Part shown: positions 22,147 to 31,125 of the stretch, in pieces | How positions within the stretch are numbered: position 1 is the first letter of the stretch | Layout of the letters: each line of letters begins with the position of its first letter | Assembly: GCF_017349295.1 (NCBI RefSeq) | Contig: NZ_JAFMPK010000047.1 | Coordinates: 273,026-337,025, forward strand | Reading direction: 5' to 3' | DNA length: 64,000 nt | Source: Myceligenerans salitolerans | GTDB taxonomy: Bacteria; Actinomycetota; Actinomycetes; Actinomycetales; Cellulomonadaceae | Notes under the pieces: generated by a model | Database searches by the model: none | The model's input: the letters and a program-made list of their open reading frames with translations, nothing else | What the model was told of the DNA's origin: nothing | Position numbers and translations under genes: made by a program

Positions 22147-24618
22147 CTACGAGGCGGCCGGGCGAAGCAGGCCGGTGGCCTCGACCGCGCGTCCGGCCGC
22201 GAGCTCGACGGTCGCCGTCCGGGTCCCCCAGCGCAACCGGTGCGCTCCCGCCGCGCGGGCGTGCCGGGCTCGGAGGGTGACGGCCAGGAGACGCGGCGCA
22301 CCGTTCCCGTCGCGGTCCCATCCGAGGTCCACCTCGATGCCGGGCCTGGCCACGAGCCCTCTCACGCGACCGGAGGGCAGGGCCGCGGGGAGCGCGGGCA
22401 GCAGTTCGATCTCGCCGCGGTGGGACTGCAGGAGCGCCTCGGCCAGCCCCGCGGTGAAGCCGAGGTTGCCGTCGATCTGGAACGGCGGGTGCGCCGCGAA
22501 CAGGTTCGGGTACAGCCCGCCGCTCTGTCCTCCGCGGTCGGTCTCCATGTCACGGAACATCAGCCGCAGCAGCCGGTCCACGGCCGGCGCCTGCCGGAGC
22601 CGGGCGCGCAGGCCGATCTTCCATGCCAGCGACCAGCCGGTCGACTCGTCCCCGCGCTCGTCGAGGAGCCGCACCGCGGCGTCGAGCCACTCCGGGGCGG
22701 GTGCGCTCGTGGCCGGCTCGCCCGGCGCCGGCCACCACCGGCCGGGGTAGAGGCGCACGAGCGGCGAGAGGTGCCGGTGGTGCGGGTCGTGCTGCTCGAA
22801 GTCGTCCTCCCACTCCGCGAGGGCTCCGCCGCGCCCCACGCGGGGGCGCCGGAGGCGCGGGAGCACGGCGCGGGCGCGGTCCACGACGGGGTCCTCGATC
22901 CCCTGCCGCTCCGCCTCGGCGACGACCAGGGCGAGGTGGTCCCGCACCAGGTCGAGGTCGCAGGCCGACGACGACGCGACGCTCGCCACCCGGCCGTCCG
23001 CGGTCCGGAAGTCGTTCTCCGGCGAGGTCGACGGGGACGTGCCCCACCACCCGTCCGCGTCCCGCACCAGCCAGTCCAGGGTGAAGGCGGCCGCGTCGCG
23101 CAGCACGTCCCACAGGGAGGTCAGGAGCGTGTCGTCGGCCTCGAACGCGGCGTGCTCGGCGACGTGCCGGGTGAGCCAGAGACCCGCCATCGGCCAGAAC
23201 GCCCACTTGGGGTCGTGGCCGCCGTGACCGACCGGCAGGCTGTACGCCCACGCGTCGGTGTTGTGGTGCGCCACCCACCCGTCGGCGTCGTACAGCCGCC
23301 GGGCGGTCCGCCGGCCCGTCACCGCGAGCGCCCGGATCAGGTCGAACAGGGGTTCCTCGGTCTCGGCGAGGTTGGTGGTGCTCGCCGGCCAGTAGTTCAT
23401 CTGGAGGTTGATGTTGGTGGTGAAGTTCGAGCTCCAGGGCGGCTGCAGCTCGCGGTTCCAGATGCCCTGGAGATTGGCCGGGAGCGTGCCGGGCCGTGAG
23501 GAGCAGATGAGCAGGTAGCGGCCGTAGTGGAACAGGGTCGCGAGGAGATGTGGGTCCCGCTCGGGTCGCGCGACGGCGCCGTCGTTGACCGCGAGCAGGC
23601 GCCGCGCCGTGTCGCCGGGAGGCTCCGCGGAACCGGGGACGAGTTCGGCCCGGTCGTACAGGCCGCGGTGGTCCGCGACCTGCTCGCGGCGCACCGTCTC
23701 CGGCCCTGCCTCCACCGCGTCCTCGACCCGCGCCCGCGCGTCCAGGGCGGCGTCCCACTCGTCGCCGCGCGGCGCGTCGACGGGGCCGCGGTAGGTGGTG
23801 GCGGTCGCCACGACGAGCGTGAGCCGTGTCGCTCCGGTCACGACGAGCCGGCCGTTCCCTGCCACGGGGTCGTCCACCACCGGGTCCGGAGCCGCCGGGT
23901 CCGCCGGCGTGGTCCACGCCCGCGCGCTCCCGTCGTGCAGCACGCGCGCCACCAGTGCGCCGCGCAACGACGCGCCCGGCCGGTCGTCGTAGCGCACGGG
24001 CGGATCCACGGGGTCGTGGGCGGGAGCGACGTCGGCCGGCATCAGCAGGTGCAGGACGACGTCGTCCCCGCTCTTCCCGGCGTACGAGCGGTGCAGCAGG
24101 CGCAGGCGGCTCCCGGCGCGGATGCTCAGGTCGCGGGGACGGCCCGTCACCACCTCGTGCACGAGCACGCCGTGCGGCCGGCTGACCCAGGTGGTCCGGG
24201 AGACCGCGTCCGCGCCGTGGCCGCCGTGGGTGGTCTGCGTCGCGGTCCGGAAGTCCAGCGTCCGGCGCACGTCCGCCGGGCCGGCGCCGGTCACCGTGAT
24301 CTCCAGCTCCGCGAACGGGAGGTAGGACTGGCCGTGCCGGTGCTGGAGCCCGCGCAGCAGCCGCCCGGCTCCGACGTGGTTGCCGGTGGCGATCAGCGCC
24401 CTGGCCCGGGCGAGCAGTTCGCGGGCACGCCCGGGGTCGGGCAGGCCGGGCTCGTCCGCCGACGCCGGACTGCCCGACCAGGCGGTGTCGTCGTTGACGA
24501 CCAGGCGGGCCGTGCGCGCGTCGCCGAGCACCATCGCGCCGAGGCCGCCGTTGCCCAGGGGCATTCCCTCCTCCCACCGCTCGGCGGGCGCCGTGGAGAC
24601 CAGGCCGTGCGCGCTCAC
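22147..24618 (-). CDS. GH95 family glycosidase (alpha-L-fucosidase / alpha-L-galactosidase type)
   Basis: An 823-residue GH95 enzyme covering the whole domain set: N-terminal beta-sandwich (residues 1-260), linker, (alpha/alpha)6 barrel (330-720) and C-terminal beta domain. Catalytic residues by comparison with the family prototype AfcA: Asn402 and Asn404 (TNINLQMNYW), Glu534 (TSPEND) and Asp716 (QIDGNLG). No signal peptide, so it acts inside the cell on imported oligosaccharides. The residue two before the first Asn is Thr400, whereas the fucosidase AfcA has His there. Translation starts at GTG 24618, overlapping the upstream stop as GTGA, so it is translationally coupled to the vWA protein. 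Confidence 0.93.
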   Translation of the reverse strand: MSAHGLVSTAPAERWEEGMPLGNGGLGAMVLGDARTARLVVNDDTAWSGSPASADEPGLPDPGRARELLARARALIATGNHVGAGRLLRGLQHRHGQSYLPFAELEITVTGAGPADVRRTLDFRTATQTTHGGHGADAVSRTTWVSRPHGVLVHEVVTGRPRDLSIRAGSRLRLLHRSYAGKSGDDVVLHLLMPADVAPAHDPVDPPVRYDDRPGASLRGALVARVLHDGSARAWTTPADPAAPDPVVDDPVAGNGRLVVTGATRLTLVVATATTYRGPVDAPRGDEWDAALDARARVEDAVEAGPETVRREQVADHRGLYDRAELVPGSAEPPGDTARRLLAVNDGAVARPERDPHLLATLFHYGRYLLICSSRPGTLPANLQGIWNRELQPPWSSNFTTNINLQMNYWPASTTNLAETEEPLFDLIRALAVTGRRTARRLYDADGWVAHHNTDAWAYSLPVGHGGHDPKWAFWPMAGLWLTRHVAEHAAFEADDTLLTSLWDVLRDAAAFTLDWLVRDADGWWGTSPSTSPENDFRTADGRVASVASSSACDLDLVRDHLALVVAEAERQGIEDPVVDRARAVLPRLRRPRVGRGGALAEWEDDFEQHDPHHRHLSPLVRLYPGRWWPAPGEPATSAPAPEWLDAAVRLLDERGDESTGWSLAWKIGLRARLRQAPAVDRLLRLMFRDMETDRGGQSGGLYPNLFAAHPPFQIDGNLGFTAGLAEALLQSHRGEIELLPALPAALPSGRVRGLVARPGIEVDLGWDRDGNGAPRLLAVTLRARHARAAGAHRLRWGTRTATVELAAGRAVEATGLLRPAAS

Positions 24619-27329
24619 TGCTTCCCGACGAGCCCGCTGAAGACGTCGACGAGCACCGTGTCCAGGTCGCCGACTCCCTCCGGCGAGCGCAGGTCCCGCA
24701 CGGCGCCACCGGTGGCGTCGCCGATCCGGACGAGTTCGTCGACCGGGGCCTCGGCGCCGATCGCGACGGAGATGACCGGCTCCGCCGTCTCCCCGTCGAT
24801 CCCGTCCAGGAGCGCCCCGAGGTCCCCGGCGGGGAACTGGGCGCCGTCGGACAGCACGACGACGGCGGTCGAGCTCGGCGGACCTGGCTTGCTCGCCTCC
24901 TCGCCCATCAGCCGCTGCGCGTCCGCGATGGTGTCGTACAGGGGCGTGCTGCCTCCGTTGCCGTCCAGCGCGCACACCGCCGCACGAAGGTCGCGACGCA
25001 GGTCCTCGTCGAGGGTGCGCATCGTGGTCGGCGTCCAGCCGCGCGGGCGCGGGAAGGCGTCGACGCTCACCGAGTCCCGCCCGTCGTCCAGCCGCTCCAG
25101 CGCGTCCAGCGTCGCCTTCTTGGCGAGCTGGAGGTAGTCCGGGTGGTTCGTCGGGGCACCGGTGCACGGGTCCTGGAACCCGGGCACCTCGGCCCGGCTG
25201 CCCGCCTTCGTCATGGAGTTGGAGTTGTCGATGGTCAGGTGCACACGCACCGGCAGGCGTACGGACTGCCACTGCTCCTGGTAGCGGCGGATCGTCGCCG
25301 CGTCCGGCCATTCGTCGATGCCCGCGGCCGGCGCCGCGTCCACGATGCGCTCCAGTTCGTCGGTGGTCGTCACGGGATCGCCCGGCGGCCGGAAACCCCA
25401 GGCGCGGAACTCGGCCTGGGCGTGGGAGTCGGTGGCGAGGTACGTCGCGAACGCCTCGGCCACCGCCCGTCGAGCGGCGTCGTCGTCGGTCGGGGCCAGG
25501 GGGACCACGGGGTGGTCGAACGCATAGGTCCCGTCGGCCGGCTGGACGGCGACGAGTCGTTCGGCGGGGTTCGCCGGCACGTCGTCGCAGTCCAGCGGTG
25601 GCACGCCGAGCGGCGAACCGCAGTCGAACAGAACCGCGGTCTGCTCCTGCGCGACGACGGCGTCCATCTGCGCGAGGGCGGCCGGGTCGTCGTGGAGCGC
25701 GCTCATCAGCTTGGTGATCTCCTGCCCGGCGAGCTCGTCCGGTACCGATGCGATCGCGTTGCGCAGGCGGTAGACGGTGGCGTCCTCCCCCATGTCGGCG
25801 AGTGCCTGGTTGAGCGCGACCGAGGTCGCCATCCCGGAGGTCGAGCGGACGGGGTCGTCGAGCGCGAGCGTCAGTTGTCCGTCGGCGGCGCGCTCGACGA
25901 GCTCGGCCCAGGTCACGGTGCCGCCTCCGAGGAGGGTGTCCCGTTTCTCCTCGGTCATGAGGACGGCGAGCACGGACGAGGCCACGGTGGTCATGTCCGC
26001 CTGCCAGTCGCCGGCCAGCTGGATTCCGCCGGGAGTCGCGGCGAGCTGCCGTGGCCAGACCGACGACGTCGGCATCCAGACGTCCGGGCGGGGCGCCGTG
26101 GTGCCGGGGGCGAGCTGGTTCTCCGGTGGCGAGATCCACGCGTCCTCGAGGGCGTCCGCGGCCACTCCGGAGCTCACGCCGCTCACGTCGATGTCGGCGC
26201 AGCGTGTCTCCTGGTAGCGGTACCGCTCGGCGAAGTCGGCGGCGAGCTCCCGCACCAGGCCGTCCTTCTCGGTGCCGACGACGACGTTCAGCGGCACCTC
26301 CTCGCCCGCGCAGGCCGGCGGGCTCCCGACCGCGCCGGGCCACCGCACGACGGCGACGACCAGCACCGCCGCGAGGACCGCGACCGCGGCCGGCGCCCAC
26401 CAGGCGGTGAGCAGTCGTCGCGGTCCGGGGCCGGCGGAGGCGGCCGTGGCGACGGCACCGGCGCCCACGGCCGCGAGCGCGTCCACGGCGTCCTGGATCG
26501 CGGGTCGCTTGACCGGCACGAACGACACGGCACCGCCCGACCCGTCCGCGTCCACGCGCCCGTTCACCATGCCGACGACGTTCATGTCGTACGTCCGCAG
26601 AACCGGCGCACCGCCGAGCTCCGGCGCGCCGGCGCCGGTTCCCCGCACGACGGTCCACAGGTCGCTCGTGCGCCGGTGCGCCGCACCGGACGCCTGGAGG
26701 GGTGCGTCCTCGCCCCACGCCTCGACCTCGACCCGTACGGACTCCTCGGGCGACTTGAGCGCGACGGGGAGCACGTGCCCCGGCAGGGTCTCGTCGTCGT
26801 CCAGGACGAGGACGGCGAACCCGGCGCGGGTCGGTGCGACCGTGTCCGGGAGGTCGAACGCGCCCGGGTGCCACGCACGTACCCGGGCCTCCAGCCGGCA
26901 GTCGGGATCCGCCTCCCACGTGCAGCGAAGCCAGCCGTCGGGTTCGCTCGTCTCCTCCGGCGCACGGTCGAGCGCGGCGTTGACGACCTCGGGCAGGGTG
27001 AGGACGCAGCGGTCGGCCACCAGGAACCCGTATCCGGCGATCCGTCCGCTCTCGGACCAGATGGTCGCCGTCGCGTGGCGGGCGGCCGACAGGTCGGGCC
27101 GGGTGAGCGCGGTGTGCTCGGCACGTGACCGGATACGCAGGGCGACGGCCGTCGTCCCGGCGCTCACGAGAGCCAGCACCACGACGACGGGGATCACCCA
27201 CGGCTGCACTCCTTCGAGCAGCGCCTGCTGGACCACGCCGACCACGGCACCCAGCACGGCGACCGCCGCCGCACCACGGCCGGCACGCTGCAGGCCGGTG
27301 CTGCCCGGCCCTTCCTGTGACTGCGACAT
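24615..27329 (-). CDS. Membrane protein with pseudo-trypsin, solute-binding and vWA domains
   Basis: A 904-residue multidomain protein. Two membrane helices (about 20-36 and 45-64), then a trypsin-like domain (85-290) reading GYGFLVADRCVLTLPEVVNAAL and ELGGAPVLRTYDMNVVGMV. At the sites where active proteases have AH and GDSGGP it has PE and LGGAP, so catalytic His and Ser are gone. A third helix (311-330) leads to a solute-binding-like domain (345-650; LNVVVGTEKDGLVRELAADF, RPDVWMPTSSVW, ALFDCGSPLG-like). Residues 694-895 are a vWA domain with MIDAS Asp701, Ser703, Ser705, Thr795 and Asp828. GGAGA precedes the ATG. It leads the GH95 operon. Confidence 0.75.
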   Translation of the reverse strand: MSQSQEGPGSTGLQRAGRGAAAVAVLGAVVGVVQQALLEGVQPWVIPVVVVLALVSAGTTAVALRIRSRAEHTALTRPDLSAARHATATIWSESGRIAGYGFLVADRCVLTLPEVVNAALDRAPEETSEPDGWLRCTWEADPDCRLEARVRAWHPGAFDLPDTVAPTRAGFAVLVLDDDETLPGHVLPVALKSPEESVRVEVEAWGEDAPLQASGAAHRRTSDLWTVVRGTGAGAPELGGAPVLRTYDMNVVGMVNGRVDADGSGGAVSFVPVKRPAIQDAVDALAAVGAGAVATAASAGPGPRRLLTAWWAPAAVAVLAAVLVVAVVRWPGAVGSPPACAGEEVPLNVVVGTEKDGLVRELAADFAERYRYQETRCADIDVSGVSSGVAADALEDAWISPPENQLAPGTTAPRPDVWMPTSSVWPRQLAATPGGIQLAGDWQADMTTVASSVLAVLMTEEKRDTLLGGGTVTWAELVERAADGQLTLALDDPVRSTSGMATSVALNQALADMGEDATVYRLRNAIASVPDELAGQEITKLMSALHDDPAALAQMDAVVAQEQTAVLFDCGSPLGVPPLDCDDVPANPAERLVAVQPADGTYAFDHPVVPLAPTDDDAARRAVAEAFATYLATDSHAQAEFRAWGFRPPGDPVTTTDELERIVDAAPAAGIDEWPDAATIRRYQEQWQSVRLPVRVHLTIDNSNSMTKAGSRAEVPGFQDPCTGAPTNHPDYLQLAKKATLDALERLDDGRDSVSVDAFPRPRGWTPTTMRTLDEDLRRDLRAAVCALDGNGGSTPLYDTIADAQRLMGEEASKPGPPSSTAVVVLSDGAQFPAGDLGALLDGIDGETAEPVISVAIGAEAPVDELVRIGDATGGAVRDLRSPEGVGDLDTVLVDVFSGLVGKQ

Positions 27330-27453
27330 CCGATGCGTCTCCGGCGACTCGTGGGACAGTTCCGCGGCAGTCTACCGATTTGCCCCGGGATGTCTCTCAA
27401 GATCACCGTGGACGACGACGCGGCCGCTCCTGGTCACCGGCCATGATGGAGGG

Positions 27454-28007: not shown

Positions 28008-28754
28008 TCAGACCTTCCTGCGGTACGTGCGCAGGGCGAGCACGTAGCAGAGCCCGCCGACGCCGGCGATCCAGGCCAGGGCGACCCAGATCTCGTCGCC
28101 GGCCGGCCGGCCCTCGAACAGGGCCCGCAGCGTCTCGACCACCGAGGTGACCGGCTGGTTCTCGGCGAACCAGCGCACCGGGCCGGGCATCGACTCCGTG
28201 GGGGCGAACGCCGAGCTGAGGAACGGCAGGAAGATCAGCGGGTAGGAGAACGCCCCGGCGCCCTCCATGGTGGTCGCGGTCAGGCCCGGGATGACCGACA
28301 TCCAGGTCAGGGCCAGTGTGAACAGCGTCAGCACCCCGAGGGCGGCCAGCCAGTCGAGGACGCTCGCCTCCGGGCGGAAGCCCATCGCGAACGCGATGCC
28401 GACGACGAGCACCGCGGTGACCGCGTTCGAGACCAGCGAGGTCAGCACGTGCGACCACAGCACCGCCGAGCGGGAGATCGGCATCGTGCCGAGCCGTGCC
28501 GTGATGCCCTTGCTGGTGTCGTTGAAGATCCGCAGGGCCGTGTAGGCGACGCTGGACGCGATCGTGATGAGCAGGATGCCCGGCAGGAGGTAGTTGGTGT
28601 AGTTGGCGCCGCCGGTCTCGATCGCACCGCCGAACACGTAGCGGAACAGCAGGAAGATCGCGATCGGGGTGATGGCGACGGTGATGATCGTGTCCGGGCT
28701 GCGCAGGATCTGCTTCATCAGGCGCCCGGTGAGGGTCGAGGTGTCGCGAAGCAT
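28008..28754 (-). CDS. ABC-2 type transporter permease
   Basis: A 248-residue permease of the daunorubicin-exporter type (DrrB class) with six membrane helices (residues about 25-45, 60-80, 108-130, 143-165, 173-190, 225-243). It opens with LTGRLMKQILRSPDTIITVAITPIAIFLLF. Its start overlaps the ATPase stop as TGATG (1 bp), a coupled pair. It is the last gene of the RHH-DUF4097-ATPase-permease run. Confidence 0.92.
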   Translation of the reverse strand: MLRDTSTLTGRLMKQILRSPDTIITVAITPIAIFLLFRYVFGGAIETGGANYTNYLLPGILLITIASSVAYTALRIFNDTSKGITARLGTMPISRSAVLWSHVLTSLVSNAVTAVLVVGIAFAMGFRPEASVLDWLAALGVLTLFTLALTWMSVIPGLTATTMEGAGAFSYPLIFLPFLSSAFAPTESMPGPVRWFAENQPVTSVVETLRALFEGRPAGDEIWVALAWIAGVGGLCYVLALRTYRRKV

Positions 28755-29527
28755 CAGTTCGCCTCCTTGGTTCCGATGATGGCGAGGAAGATCTCCTCGA
28801 GGGTGGGCTGCTTCTCGACGTACTCGACCTTGGCCGGCGGGAACATCGTCTTGAGCTCGCTGAGCGTGCCGTTCGCGATGATCGTGCCGCCGTGCAGGAT
28901 CGCGATGCGGTCCGCGAGCTGCTCGGCCTCCTCCAGGTACTGGGTCGTGAGCAGGATGGTGGTGCCGCTCGACGCCAGGCCCTTGACGGTGCGCCAGACC
29001 TCGATCCGCGCCTCGGGGTCGAGGCCGGTGGTGGGCTCGTCGAGGAAGATGATCTCCGGCGAGCCGACCAGGCTCATGGCGATGTCGAGGCGGCGCTTCA
29101 TGCCGCCGGAGTAGGTGGCGGCGCGACGGTCCGCGGCGTCGGTCAGGCCGAACTGCGCGAGCAGGCCCGTGGCGACCGTCCTCGGGCCCGGGACCCGGCG
29201 CAGCCGGGCGATGAGCTCGAGGTTCTCCCGCCCGGTGAGCACCTCGTCGACGGCCGCGAACTGGCCCGTCAGCGAGATGGCGCGACGGACCTCCTCGGGC
29301 CGCGCGACCACGTCGTGGCCGGACAGCGACGCCGTGCCGGCGTCGGGGCGCAGGAGCGTGGAGCAGATGTTCACCGTCGTGGTCTTGCCGGCGCCGTTCG
29401 AGCCGAGCAGGGCGAAGATCTCGCCTCTCCCGACGTCGAAGGTGACGCCCTTGAGGACCTCGTTGTCGCCGAACGACTTTCTCAGGCCGACGACGTCGAT
29501 CGCCGGGGCGGACGCAGGACTGGGCAT
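28754..29527 (-). CDS. ABC transporter ATP-binding protein (daunorubicin-exporter type)
   Basis: A 257-residue ATPase with Walker A GSNGAGKTT near residue 40, signature YSGGMKRRLDIA and Walker B IIFLDEPTTGLD. The C-terminal helix extension (AKVEYVEKQPTLEEIFLAIIG) is typical of DrrA-like proteins. It pairs with the permease just downstream to form an exporter. GGAGGAATC precedes ATG 29527. The 144-bp gap to the DUF4097 gene (29528-29671) holds no ORF I can support. Confidence 0.93.
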   Translation of the reverse strand: MPSPASAPAIDVVGLRKSFGDNEVLKGVTFDVGRGEIFALLGSNGAGKTTTVNICSTLLRPDAGTASLSGHDVVARPEEVRRAISLTGQFAAVDEVLTGRENLELIARLRRVPGPRTVATGLLAQFGLTDAADRRAATYSGGMKRRLDIAMSLVGSPEIIFLDEPTTGLDPEARIEVWRTVKGLASSGTTILLTTQYLEEAEQLADRIAILHGGTIIANGTLSELKTMFPPAKVEYVEKQPTLEEIFLAIIGTKEAN

Positions 29528-29671
29528 GATTCCTCCAGATGGGTGGGGGCTGTTTCCGGGCGCGCTCGGGCCAGGGGCGGGCGCGTGGCGGCCTTCCGGC
29601 CGGGCAAGGCGGTGTGTGTCAGGAGCAGGCGTGGCGGGCCGGCACCGGCGGGCCGTCCGCCGGGGCACGGC

Positions 29672-30514
29672 TCACGGGCGGCGGATGATGATCTCCCCGT
29701 ACCCGGTACGGGCGTGGACCTCGGCGGTGCCCTCTCCCTCGACGGGAGCGGCGGCCGGTGTGAGCTGGTTGCGGACGGCTCCGTGCTCGGAGGCGACGTC
29801 GAGGAACGCGGCCGTTCCTTCGGGGACGCCCACCTCGATCGAGCCGTAGGACGTGGTGAGGCTGACGCTCCCCGAGACGACGTTGTTGACACGGATCCCG
29901 GAGTGGGCCGACTTCGCGGTGAGCGAGCCGCGTACGCGGCTCACCGCGATCTCGGCGTGCGCCCCGGTCACGTCCAGCGACCCGGTGACGTCGCCGATGG
30001 TGACGGTGCCGTTCGTCGCCCGGAGCGAGCCGTCGCCCGTGAACTCCTCGATGCGCGCCGAACCAGCGCTGACCTTGACGTTCGCGGTGCCGCCGGTCCG
30101 CCCGACGACGAGGTTGCCGGCGGAGACCTTGGCGTCGAGCCGGTCCACGGCGTCCATCCGGGCGTCACCCGCGGAGACGGTGAGATCGACGACGCCGAGG
30201 TGCCCTTCGGCGAAGAACGAGCCGACCTTGCCCCGGACGTCGGAGCCCTCGGGCAGTTCGACCGTGATGTCCGCGGTGCCCGCGGAGAACGGCAGCACCC
30301 ACTGCTTCCAGGAGCCGGGGTAGGTGATCTCGACGGCCTCGCCCTCGCGCTCGACGCGGACCTCCTCGGCGGCGCGGACGCTGCCGGACTTGGCGGGATC
30401 GGTGGGCAGGACCGTGACCACGACGTCGTCACGCTCGCCCGCGACGACGCGCAGGTTGACGAAGGGGACGTCGACGCGGACGGGGACGGGGCTGGGGGCG
30501 GGGAAAACGGGCAT
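29672..30514 (-). CDS. DUF4097 family beta-repeat protein
   Basis: A 280-residue protein of the DUF4097/adhesin-like beta-helix type. Short strand repeats run through residues 75-270 (DLTVSAGDARMDAVD, AKVSAGNLVVGRTGG, VKVSAGSARIEEFTG, VTGAHAEIAVSRV), with regular Gly/Asp turns. No signal peptide, so it is probably cytoplasmic. In other bacteria such proteins accompany small regulators or ABC exporters, and the role is unknown. GGAGG precedes ATG 30514. Three TGGTGTC sites lie between it and the RHH gene. Confidence 0.87.
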   Translation of the reverse strand: MPVFPAPSPVPVRVDVPFVNLRVVAGERDDVVVTVLPTDPAKSGSVRAAEEVRVEREGEAVEITYPGSWKQWVLPFSAGTADITVELPEGSDVRGKVGSFFAEGHLGVVDLTVSAGDARMDAVDRLDAKVSAGNLVVGRTGGTANVKVSAGSARIEEFTGDGSLRATNGTVTIGDVTGSLDVTGAHAEIAVSRVRGSLTAKSAHSGIRVNNVVSGSVSLTTSYGSIEVGVPEGTAAFLDVASEHGAVRNQLTPAAAPVEGEGTAEVHARTGYGEIIIRRP

Positions 30515-30530
30515 GGGAGACCTCCGGGTG

Positions 30531-30568
30531 TGGTGTCAGTGTGGTGTCAGGCGGGTCTAGGTGGTGTC
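30531..30568. promoter_or_regulatory. Three TGGTGTC operator half-sites upstream of DUF4097 gene
   Basis: TGGTGTC occurs at 30531-30537, 30542-30548 and 30562-30568, spaced 11 and 20 bp apart. They fill the 65-bp gap between the RHH gene stop and the DUF4097 start. The same heptamer builds the palindrome upstream of the RHH gene, so this is the likely second binding region of that regulator. Confidence 0.6.
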
Positions 30569-30579
30569 GGGTCGGGCGG

Positions 30580-31125
30580 TCAGCGCACCCAGCCGGTGTG
30601 GCGGTTGCGCCCACGCGCCTCGGGCCCGGCGTCGGGGGCGGAGCGGGCGGCGGACGGCTCGAGCGCGGCGGCGACCGCGCGCACGAGCCACGTGTTCACC
30701 GAGACGCCGTCGCGGGCGGCGGCGACCTCGACCTGCGCCTTGAGACGGTCGGGCAGGCGCAGGGTGGTCCGGGTGGTCGCGGCGCCGTCGGCGTCGGCGA
30801 TCGGCGCGCCGGACGACGCGGCCGGCGCCTGCGCCGGGCGCGTCATGGCGGGCGCGGCCGGGTCCTGGTGGGCCTCGGCCGTCACGGGCGGCACGACGAC
30901 GAACTCCGGGTCGCCGCCGCGCAGCCGCACGTCGACGGAGCCGGGCGCGAGCTCGGCGGAGATCTCACCGGCCGCCTCGGACAGTGCGTCCAGCAGGACG
31001 AGACGCACGGCGGCGTCGAGCGGCGCGGTCAGGCGTTGCGCGAGCTGCCGGGCGTCGTCGCCCGAGGCGTCGGCCGCGACGGCGAGCCGCTGCTGGAGGT
31101 CCTCGACGTGGTGCGTGATATCCAT
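30580..31125 (-). CDS. Ribbon-helix-helix (HicB/Arc-type) regulator
   Basis: A 181-residue protein with a C-terminal RHH DNA-binding domain at residues about 115-155 (TRTTLRLPDRLKAQVEVAAARDGVSVNTWLVRAVAAAL). The N-terminal 90 residues form a helical part plus strands (VDVRLRGGDPEFVVVPP). HicB-family names are used for similar proteins, but no HicA toxin is present. The gene is followed by the DUF4097-ABC operon it probably controls. No ribosome site precedes ATG 31125. The adjacent palindrome embeds a TTGACA (complement of 31151-31156) that may be its -35. Confidence 0.85.
   Translation of the reverse strand: MDITHHVEDLQQRLAVAADASGDDARQLAQRLTAPLDAAVRLVLLDALSEAAGEISAELAPGSVDVRLRGGDPEFVVVPPVTAEAHQDPAAPAMTRPAQAPAASSGAPIADADGAATTRTTLRLPDRLKAQVEVAAARDGVSVNTWLVRAVAAALEPSAARSAPDAGPEARGRNRHTGWVR

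Follow-up and report, generated by a model that had tools for sequence, protein, structure and literature searches.

The window, i.e., the whole stretch of 64,000 nucleotides analyzed here, carries on its minus strand a gene for a large membrane protein (Table 1). The open reading frame runs from position 27329 to 24615, starts with ATG, encodes 904 amino acids with zero internal stops and displays strong coding periodicity (GC of 0.77/0.53/0.92 by codon position). A scan of the gene region for promoters and terminators found none. On its 5′ side lies a divergent gene for a P-loop kinase, and its stop codon overlaps the start of a glycoside hydrolase family 95 (GH95) gene within the letters GTGA, as a previous inspection of the letters alone (hereafter the sequence-only reading) had pointed out. 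That reading took the GH95 enzyme to be intracellular, in line with our results: Pfam identified a full-length family member, no signal peptide was seen by eye, and a cytosolic location is predicted.

Table 1. Features of the locus (positions in the window; aa, amino acids; TM, transmembrane; SBP, solute-binding protein; AF2, AlphaFold2).
Feature	Positions	Strand	Evidence
GH95 glycoside hydrolase, predicted cytosolic, mere neighbor	22147..24618	−	Pfam PF22124, E 5.3e-138; conserved in congeners
904-aa membrane protein, TM-TM / pseudo-trypsin / TM / SBP / vWA	24615..27329	−	ORF, translation, homologues, AF2 model
vWA domain, residues 692-904, intact MIDAS	24618..25256	−	Alignment; VIA; Pfam VWA_2
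Segment of about 2.74 kb absent from the same place in congener G165	24619..27361	−	Empty-site comparison
Type-II SBP domain, residues 341-693, nearest to sulfate-binding proteins, predicted outside	25251..26309	−	VIA; Pfam in relatives
Third TM helix, residues 310-328	26346..26402	−	Hydropathy
Catalytically dead chymotrypsin-fold domain, residues 85-275, predicted cytosolic	26505..27077	−	AF2 with Foldseek/VIA; triad alignment
Catalytic Ser position, here Gly239	26613..26615	−	Alignment
Catalytic Asp position, here Gly170	26820..26822	−	Alignment
Catalytic His position, here Glu114	26988..26990	−	Alignment
N-terminal TM hairpin, residues 20-63	27141..27272	−	Hydropathy; model helices 12-38 and 45-76
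25-nt block GGGGCAAATCGGTAGACTGCCGCGG common to the window and G165, left edge of the presence/absence segment	27362..27386	−	Empty-site comparison

Searches with the window protein by itself were poorly informative: Pfam returned a sub-threshold VWA_2 match and nothing else, while NCBIfam, a single-sequence PDB search and PADLOC (weak matches for relatives only) gave zero matches. The remaining domains were thus assigned from homologues and from structural models, including a full-length AF2 model (pLDDT 79). Hydropathy, this model and fold matches bore out the order proposed in the sequence-only reading, namely two TM segments, a trypsin-like domain, a third TM segment, a solute-binding domain and a vWA domain, as well as its view of the product as a membrane protein. 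The TM segments span residues 20-38, 45-63, and 310-328, and the second and third are bordered by basic residues on the side that faces the trypsin domain. Because these positive charges flank the trypsin side, residues 65-309 are predicted to lie inside the cell and residues 329-904 outside.

The trypsin-like domain was modeled by AF2 on residues 80-300, with an input alignment of 11 locus-derived sequences (pLDDT 80.8, pTM 0.82). Foldseek matched this model to 1102 PDB chains at E ≤ 0.001, and the best VIA-align match was HtrA1 (6z0x, Z 18.6, rmsd 2.4, 168 aligned residues), with DegS (Z 18.4) and MamO (Z 18.3) just behind. As modeled, residues 80-300 adopt the chymotrypsin-like double beta-barrel fold (PA clan, S1), in accordance with the trypsin-like fold first suspected. 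DegS is a membrane-linked signaling protease and MamO a degenerate one; the window protein shares their fold but has no PDZ domain, is predicted to be cytosolic rather than periplasmic on its protease side, and is fused to an SBP-vWA module. The His-Asp-Ser triad of active S1 serine proteases is absent: alignment places Glu114, Gly170, and Gly239 at the three positions, so that the loss of His and Ser noticed from the letters is confirmed and the Asp is additionally gone.

The outer half of the protein is a two-domain module. The predicted structure of the solute-binding domain is closest to sulfate-binding-type proteins (5um2, Z 26.8, 296 aligned residues; 1sbp, Z 26.2; SubI, Z 23.7), which agrees with the solute-binding character previously assigned to it. 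Binders of sulfate, thiamine, pyridoxal-type compounds and phospho-sugars rank at the top, which suggests a ligand class, the resemblance to sulfate-binding proteins being one of modeled fold only. The vWA domain (about residues 692-904) matches 4fx5 with a Z of 23.1 over 179 aligned residues. Its MIDAS was described as intact, and indeed D701/S703/S705, T795, and D828 are invariant across the fusion family defined below, in which Pfam detects VWA_2 in all six members (sub-threshold in the window protein) and SBP_bac_11 in five of the six. With an SBP_bac_11-type domain followed by a vWA domain with MIDAS, the window protein carries the actinobacterial SBP-vWA module. Profile matches were found in 72 of 396 genomes of its order and 135 of 394 genomes of its class, mostly to the SBP-vWA part. 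Because this half is common on its own, and in one case joined to a nucleoside-phosphorylase domain, it is an exchangeable module. In the latter case (locus L085, 5978-9073), PNP_UDP_1 precedes SBP_bac_11 and vWA, so that the outer module also pairs with another signaling-type domain.

A contig scan with the window protein alone found no relative of the whole protein, while an alignment-based one did. Homologues occur in 6 of the 221 genomes of its taxonomic family, its own included: Promicromonospora soli, P. thailandica, Antribacter soli, A. gilvus, Myceligenerans pegani, and the window genome. One additional fusion was found outside that family, in Nocardioides turkmenicus. The window protein aligns with these relatives over its full length, at 33-34% identity to the family-genome homologues within matched stretches, and shares their domain order; it thus belongs to a rare actinobacterial family of trypsin-TM-SBP-vWA fusions, defined here. 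In the tree, the trypsin fusions group together as a single clade nested among the SBP-vWA proteins, with a support of 100/99 that falls to 93/78 once the Nocardioides protein is added and leaves their internal order open. The longest branch, of 2.4-2.9 substitutions per site, is that of the window protein, for which the searched genomes yielded no close orthologue.

The sequence-only reading had coupled the membrane protein functionally to GH95, as a sensor whose ligand would control the cytosolic enzyme. In the window strain, co-transcription is indeed likely, given the same strand and the 4-bp overlap, and two further members of the fusion family adjoin glycosidase genes (GH127 in A. soli, in the same orientation; GH43 in M. 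pegani, in convergent orientation). Those are nevertheless three different GH families, one of them on the opposite strand, and no glycosidase adjoins the gene in A. gilvus, the two Promicromonospora, or Nocardioides. No GH95 gene was found beside a homologue of the 904-aa protein in the neighborhoods of all members found, and at the applied threshold GH95 was not matched at all in two homologue-carrying genomes (G164 and G194). The relatives showed no conserved neighbor relation with GH95, an outcome that the sequence-only reading had itself named as contrary to its proposal; the conserved neighbor of the fusion family is Trypco1, in its catalytically intact branch only. As for the overlap, 3 of the 34 same-strand gene pairs within the window have one of 4 bp.

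The closest GH95 orthologues are the called proteins of the congeners G163 (77% identical) and G165 (80%). Their genes keep the gene order of the window, flanked by the P-loop kinase gene and a 172-aa gene, but without the 904-aa gene, of whose product no homologue was found anywhere in either genome. In G165, nothing separates the 25-nt block GGGGCAAATCGGTAGACTGCCGCGG from a GTGAG start that is in frame with GH95, whereas in the window this block and the same GTGAG are 2.74 kb apart, with the 904-aa gene in between. In G163, the slot between the kinase and GH95 genes (L135, 6916-7596) holds an FCD/GntR regulator, which also overlaps GH95 by 4 bp, so that each of the three congeners compared has a different content there. 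Judging from these sequences, the 904-aa gene most likely entered between the upstream region of GH95 and its start codon. Insertion is the simpler reading of the empty site in G165, the alternative being a precise loss in that genome; no target duplication or mobile-element signature was seen at the edges of the segment. A conserved GH95 sensor operon is therefore rejected on presence/absence, neighborhoods, and the empty site, and control of GH95 through ligand sensing is very improbable. In the same window, positions 28008-31125 hold an ABC-2 transporter pair beside a Toastrack (DUF4097) protein and a HicB-type protein, an arrangement that is syntenic in G165.

A presence/absence pattern between congeners, together with the longest branch in the tree and the loss of all three catalytic residues, could also indicate a horizontally acquired copy that is decaying and without function. 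This is quite improbable, as the 904-aa frame is intact with strong coding periodicity, the MIDAS and SBP motifs are conserved, and purifying selection acts on the dead sister genes of Antribacter (see below).

The state of the triad varied with the architecture of the N-terminus. Both Promicromonospora proteins keep it (the catalytic positions read TCHH, LD/AD, and PGFSG), begin directly with the protease domain, without a TM hairpin, and are the only triad-intact fusion members seen. A Trypco1 gene lies directly upstream of both, abutting or overlapping (PF19493, E 2.5e-23 and 7.4e-23). By contrast, the five members with a TM hairpin (window, M. pegani, both Antribacter, and Nocardioides) have all lost the Ser together with one or both of the remaining triad residues, and none of the five has a Trypco1 neighbor. 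The loss of His and Ser, for which a family-wide check had been proposed, is thus restricted to one type of member. Since the substitutions at the triad positions differ between dead members, the triad may have been lost several times; the tree neither favors nor rejects a single clade of dead TM-hairpin members (AU test, p = 0.417).

Selection was compared within one species pair for each state, using simple Nei-Gojobori estimates on GC-rich genes, so that the contrast carries more weight than the values. In the Antribacter pair, the dN/dS of the dead domain was 0.16 (bootstrap 0.09-0.25) vs. 0.22 for SBP and vWA, while in the Promicromonospora pair it reached 0.69 (0.48-0.96) for the intact protease, 0.33 for SBP and vWA, and 0.16 for Trypco1. 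Because it is under strong purifying selection, the dead domain of Antribacter is a maintained pseudoprotease. A constrained dead domain and a fast-evolving intact one would fit a substrate arms race that gave way to a fixed binding role, on the basis of one pair each.

This constraint bears on the possibility that the outer SBP-vWA module is the working part, in envelope stress or adhesion, and that the cytosolic pseudo-trypsin is mainly an anchor or a scaffold remnant. Trypsin-less SBP-vWA proteins are far more common, as the above profile matches in the class indicate, and in several genomes they stand beside a membrane protein and PspA/IM30. This alternative is unlikely, as a mere remnant would not show the constraint seen in the dead domain of Antribacter, which is no weaker than that on SBP and vWA. 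The stand-alone proteins have the same SBP_bac_11 and vWA domains and a single TM helix, and the fusion family branches among them; they differ in having no cytosolic trypsin, and often occur with a small membrane protein and sometimes with PspA. At L078 (5460-7007), L079 (3523-5224), and L083 (5889-7568), a stand-alone SBP-vWA gene is followed by a small membrane protein, with no clear Pfam match, and then by a PspA/IM30-type gene; these neighbors suggest a link to envelope stress for the stand-alone genes.

Several known systems share parts of this architecture. Kaur et al. (2020; PMC7159879) describe Trypco1 as a companion of trypsins in predicted conflict systems, and report that almost every trypsin in the effector position is inactive. 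The kinship with trypsin-type conflict modules that had been proposed is supported by the Trypco1 partner of the Promicromonospora relatives. Like those modules, the fusion proteins combine an N-terminal Trypsin_2-type domain with exchangeable C-terminal domains, and in Promicromonospora Trypco1 lies directly upstream; unlike them, the window protein has no Trypco1 next to it (the adjacent genes being those of the P-loop kinase and GH95), bears a TM hairpin in its place, and lacks the catalytic triad. In related genomes, Trypco1-trypsin genes with CHAT, WD40, or STING tails kept His-Asp-Ser in all those sampled. The two-gene EACC1 system includes instances with TM helices and a periplasmic-binding domain, and MoxR-independent vWA domains (Kaur et al., 2020). 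It resembles the window protein in being membrane-associated with a protease-superfamily N-terminus, but has a caspase-like constant domain and an EACC1 partner gene, where the window protein has a chymotrypsin-like N-terminal domain and a divergent P-loop kinase gene as its 5′ neighbor. In the VMAP/MoxR-vWA ternary conflict system, the MoxR ATPase gene is adjacent to the vWA gene; no MoxR partner was found near the window gene, the nearest MoxR-type AAA_3 match on the contig lying about 100 kb away. In A. gilvus, a gene pair (L009, 3070-5429) for a MoxR-like AAA protein and a vWA/metallopeptidase-type partner-like protein follows the homologue on its strand, at a distance of about 2.6 kb, and was not seen in A. 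soli. The fusion loci lie outside recognized defense islands.

We propose, with a probability of about 0.5, that the window protein is a receptor which relays outside sensing to a cytosolic domain, an active protease in some relatives and a pseudoprotease serving as a binding platform here, with GH95 as an unrelated neighbor. Outside, the SBP domain, of an anion- or phosphoester-type fold, and the metal-binding vWA domain would recognize a ligand or partner, and the signal would cross the membrane inward, via one TM helix, to the chymotrypsin-fold domain. Where the protease is intact and served by Trypco1, as in the Promicromonospora branch, sensing would probably unlock or direct its activity. 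In the TM-hairpin members, including the window protein, where catalysis and Trypco1 are absent, the domain would most likely be a non-catalytic binding or relay platform. We infer recognition outside, relay, and proteolysis or non-catalytic binding inside from the module architecture and from the systems described by Kaur et al. (2020; PMC7159879), and a role in immunity or stress may be envisaged.

In a more general and more tentative form, the family may represent a class of single-pass receptors in which SBP-vWA controls a cytosolic trypsin-Trypco1 protease, and whose sisters possibly exchanged activity and Trypco1 for a hairpin, the dead protease transducing the signal. Receptor pseudokinases follow a comparable logic, a dead enzyme being kept as a signal-transducing domain. 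Trypsin-Trypco1 conflict modules are predicted systems whose input is undescribed in the literature found, and in the fusion family such a module would be linked through the membrane to a sensor on the outside. It also offers natural pairs of active and dead proteins, which makes both the SBP-vWA input and the role of a maintained pseudoprotease testable.

From a different point of view, the pseudoprotease could act without any relay, as a dominant-negative or decoy that titrates peptides, inhibitors, or partners of the active trypsin-like proteases of the cell. A candidate for such an active protease exists, as the window genome has, elsewhere, a triad-intact trypsin linked to Trypco1 and fused to STING, and the conflict systems of Kaur et al. 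(2020; PMC7159879) can be cited in support. A decoy nevertheless seems doubtful, since a soluble decoy would have no need to be joined, by way of a TM helix, to a conserved module that resembles a sensor. The sole Trypco1 match of the window genome, on another contig, precedes this 560-aa protein (L143, contig C1, 5092-7136), which combines an intact Trypsin_2 with a STING domain of the prokaryotic type (PF20300, E 1.9e-15). A search of the window genome for a CD-NTase of the SMODS type (PF18144), as a companion of this trypsin-STING gene, found none; the same succession of Trypco1 and a 560-aa protein is present in two congeners (L145, 5612-7636; L146, 5941-7965).
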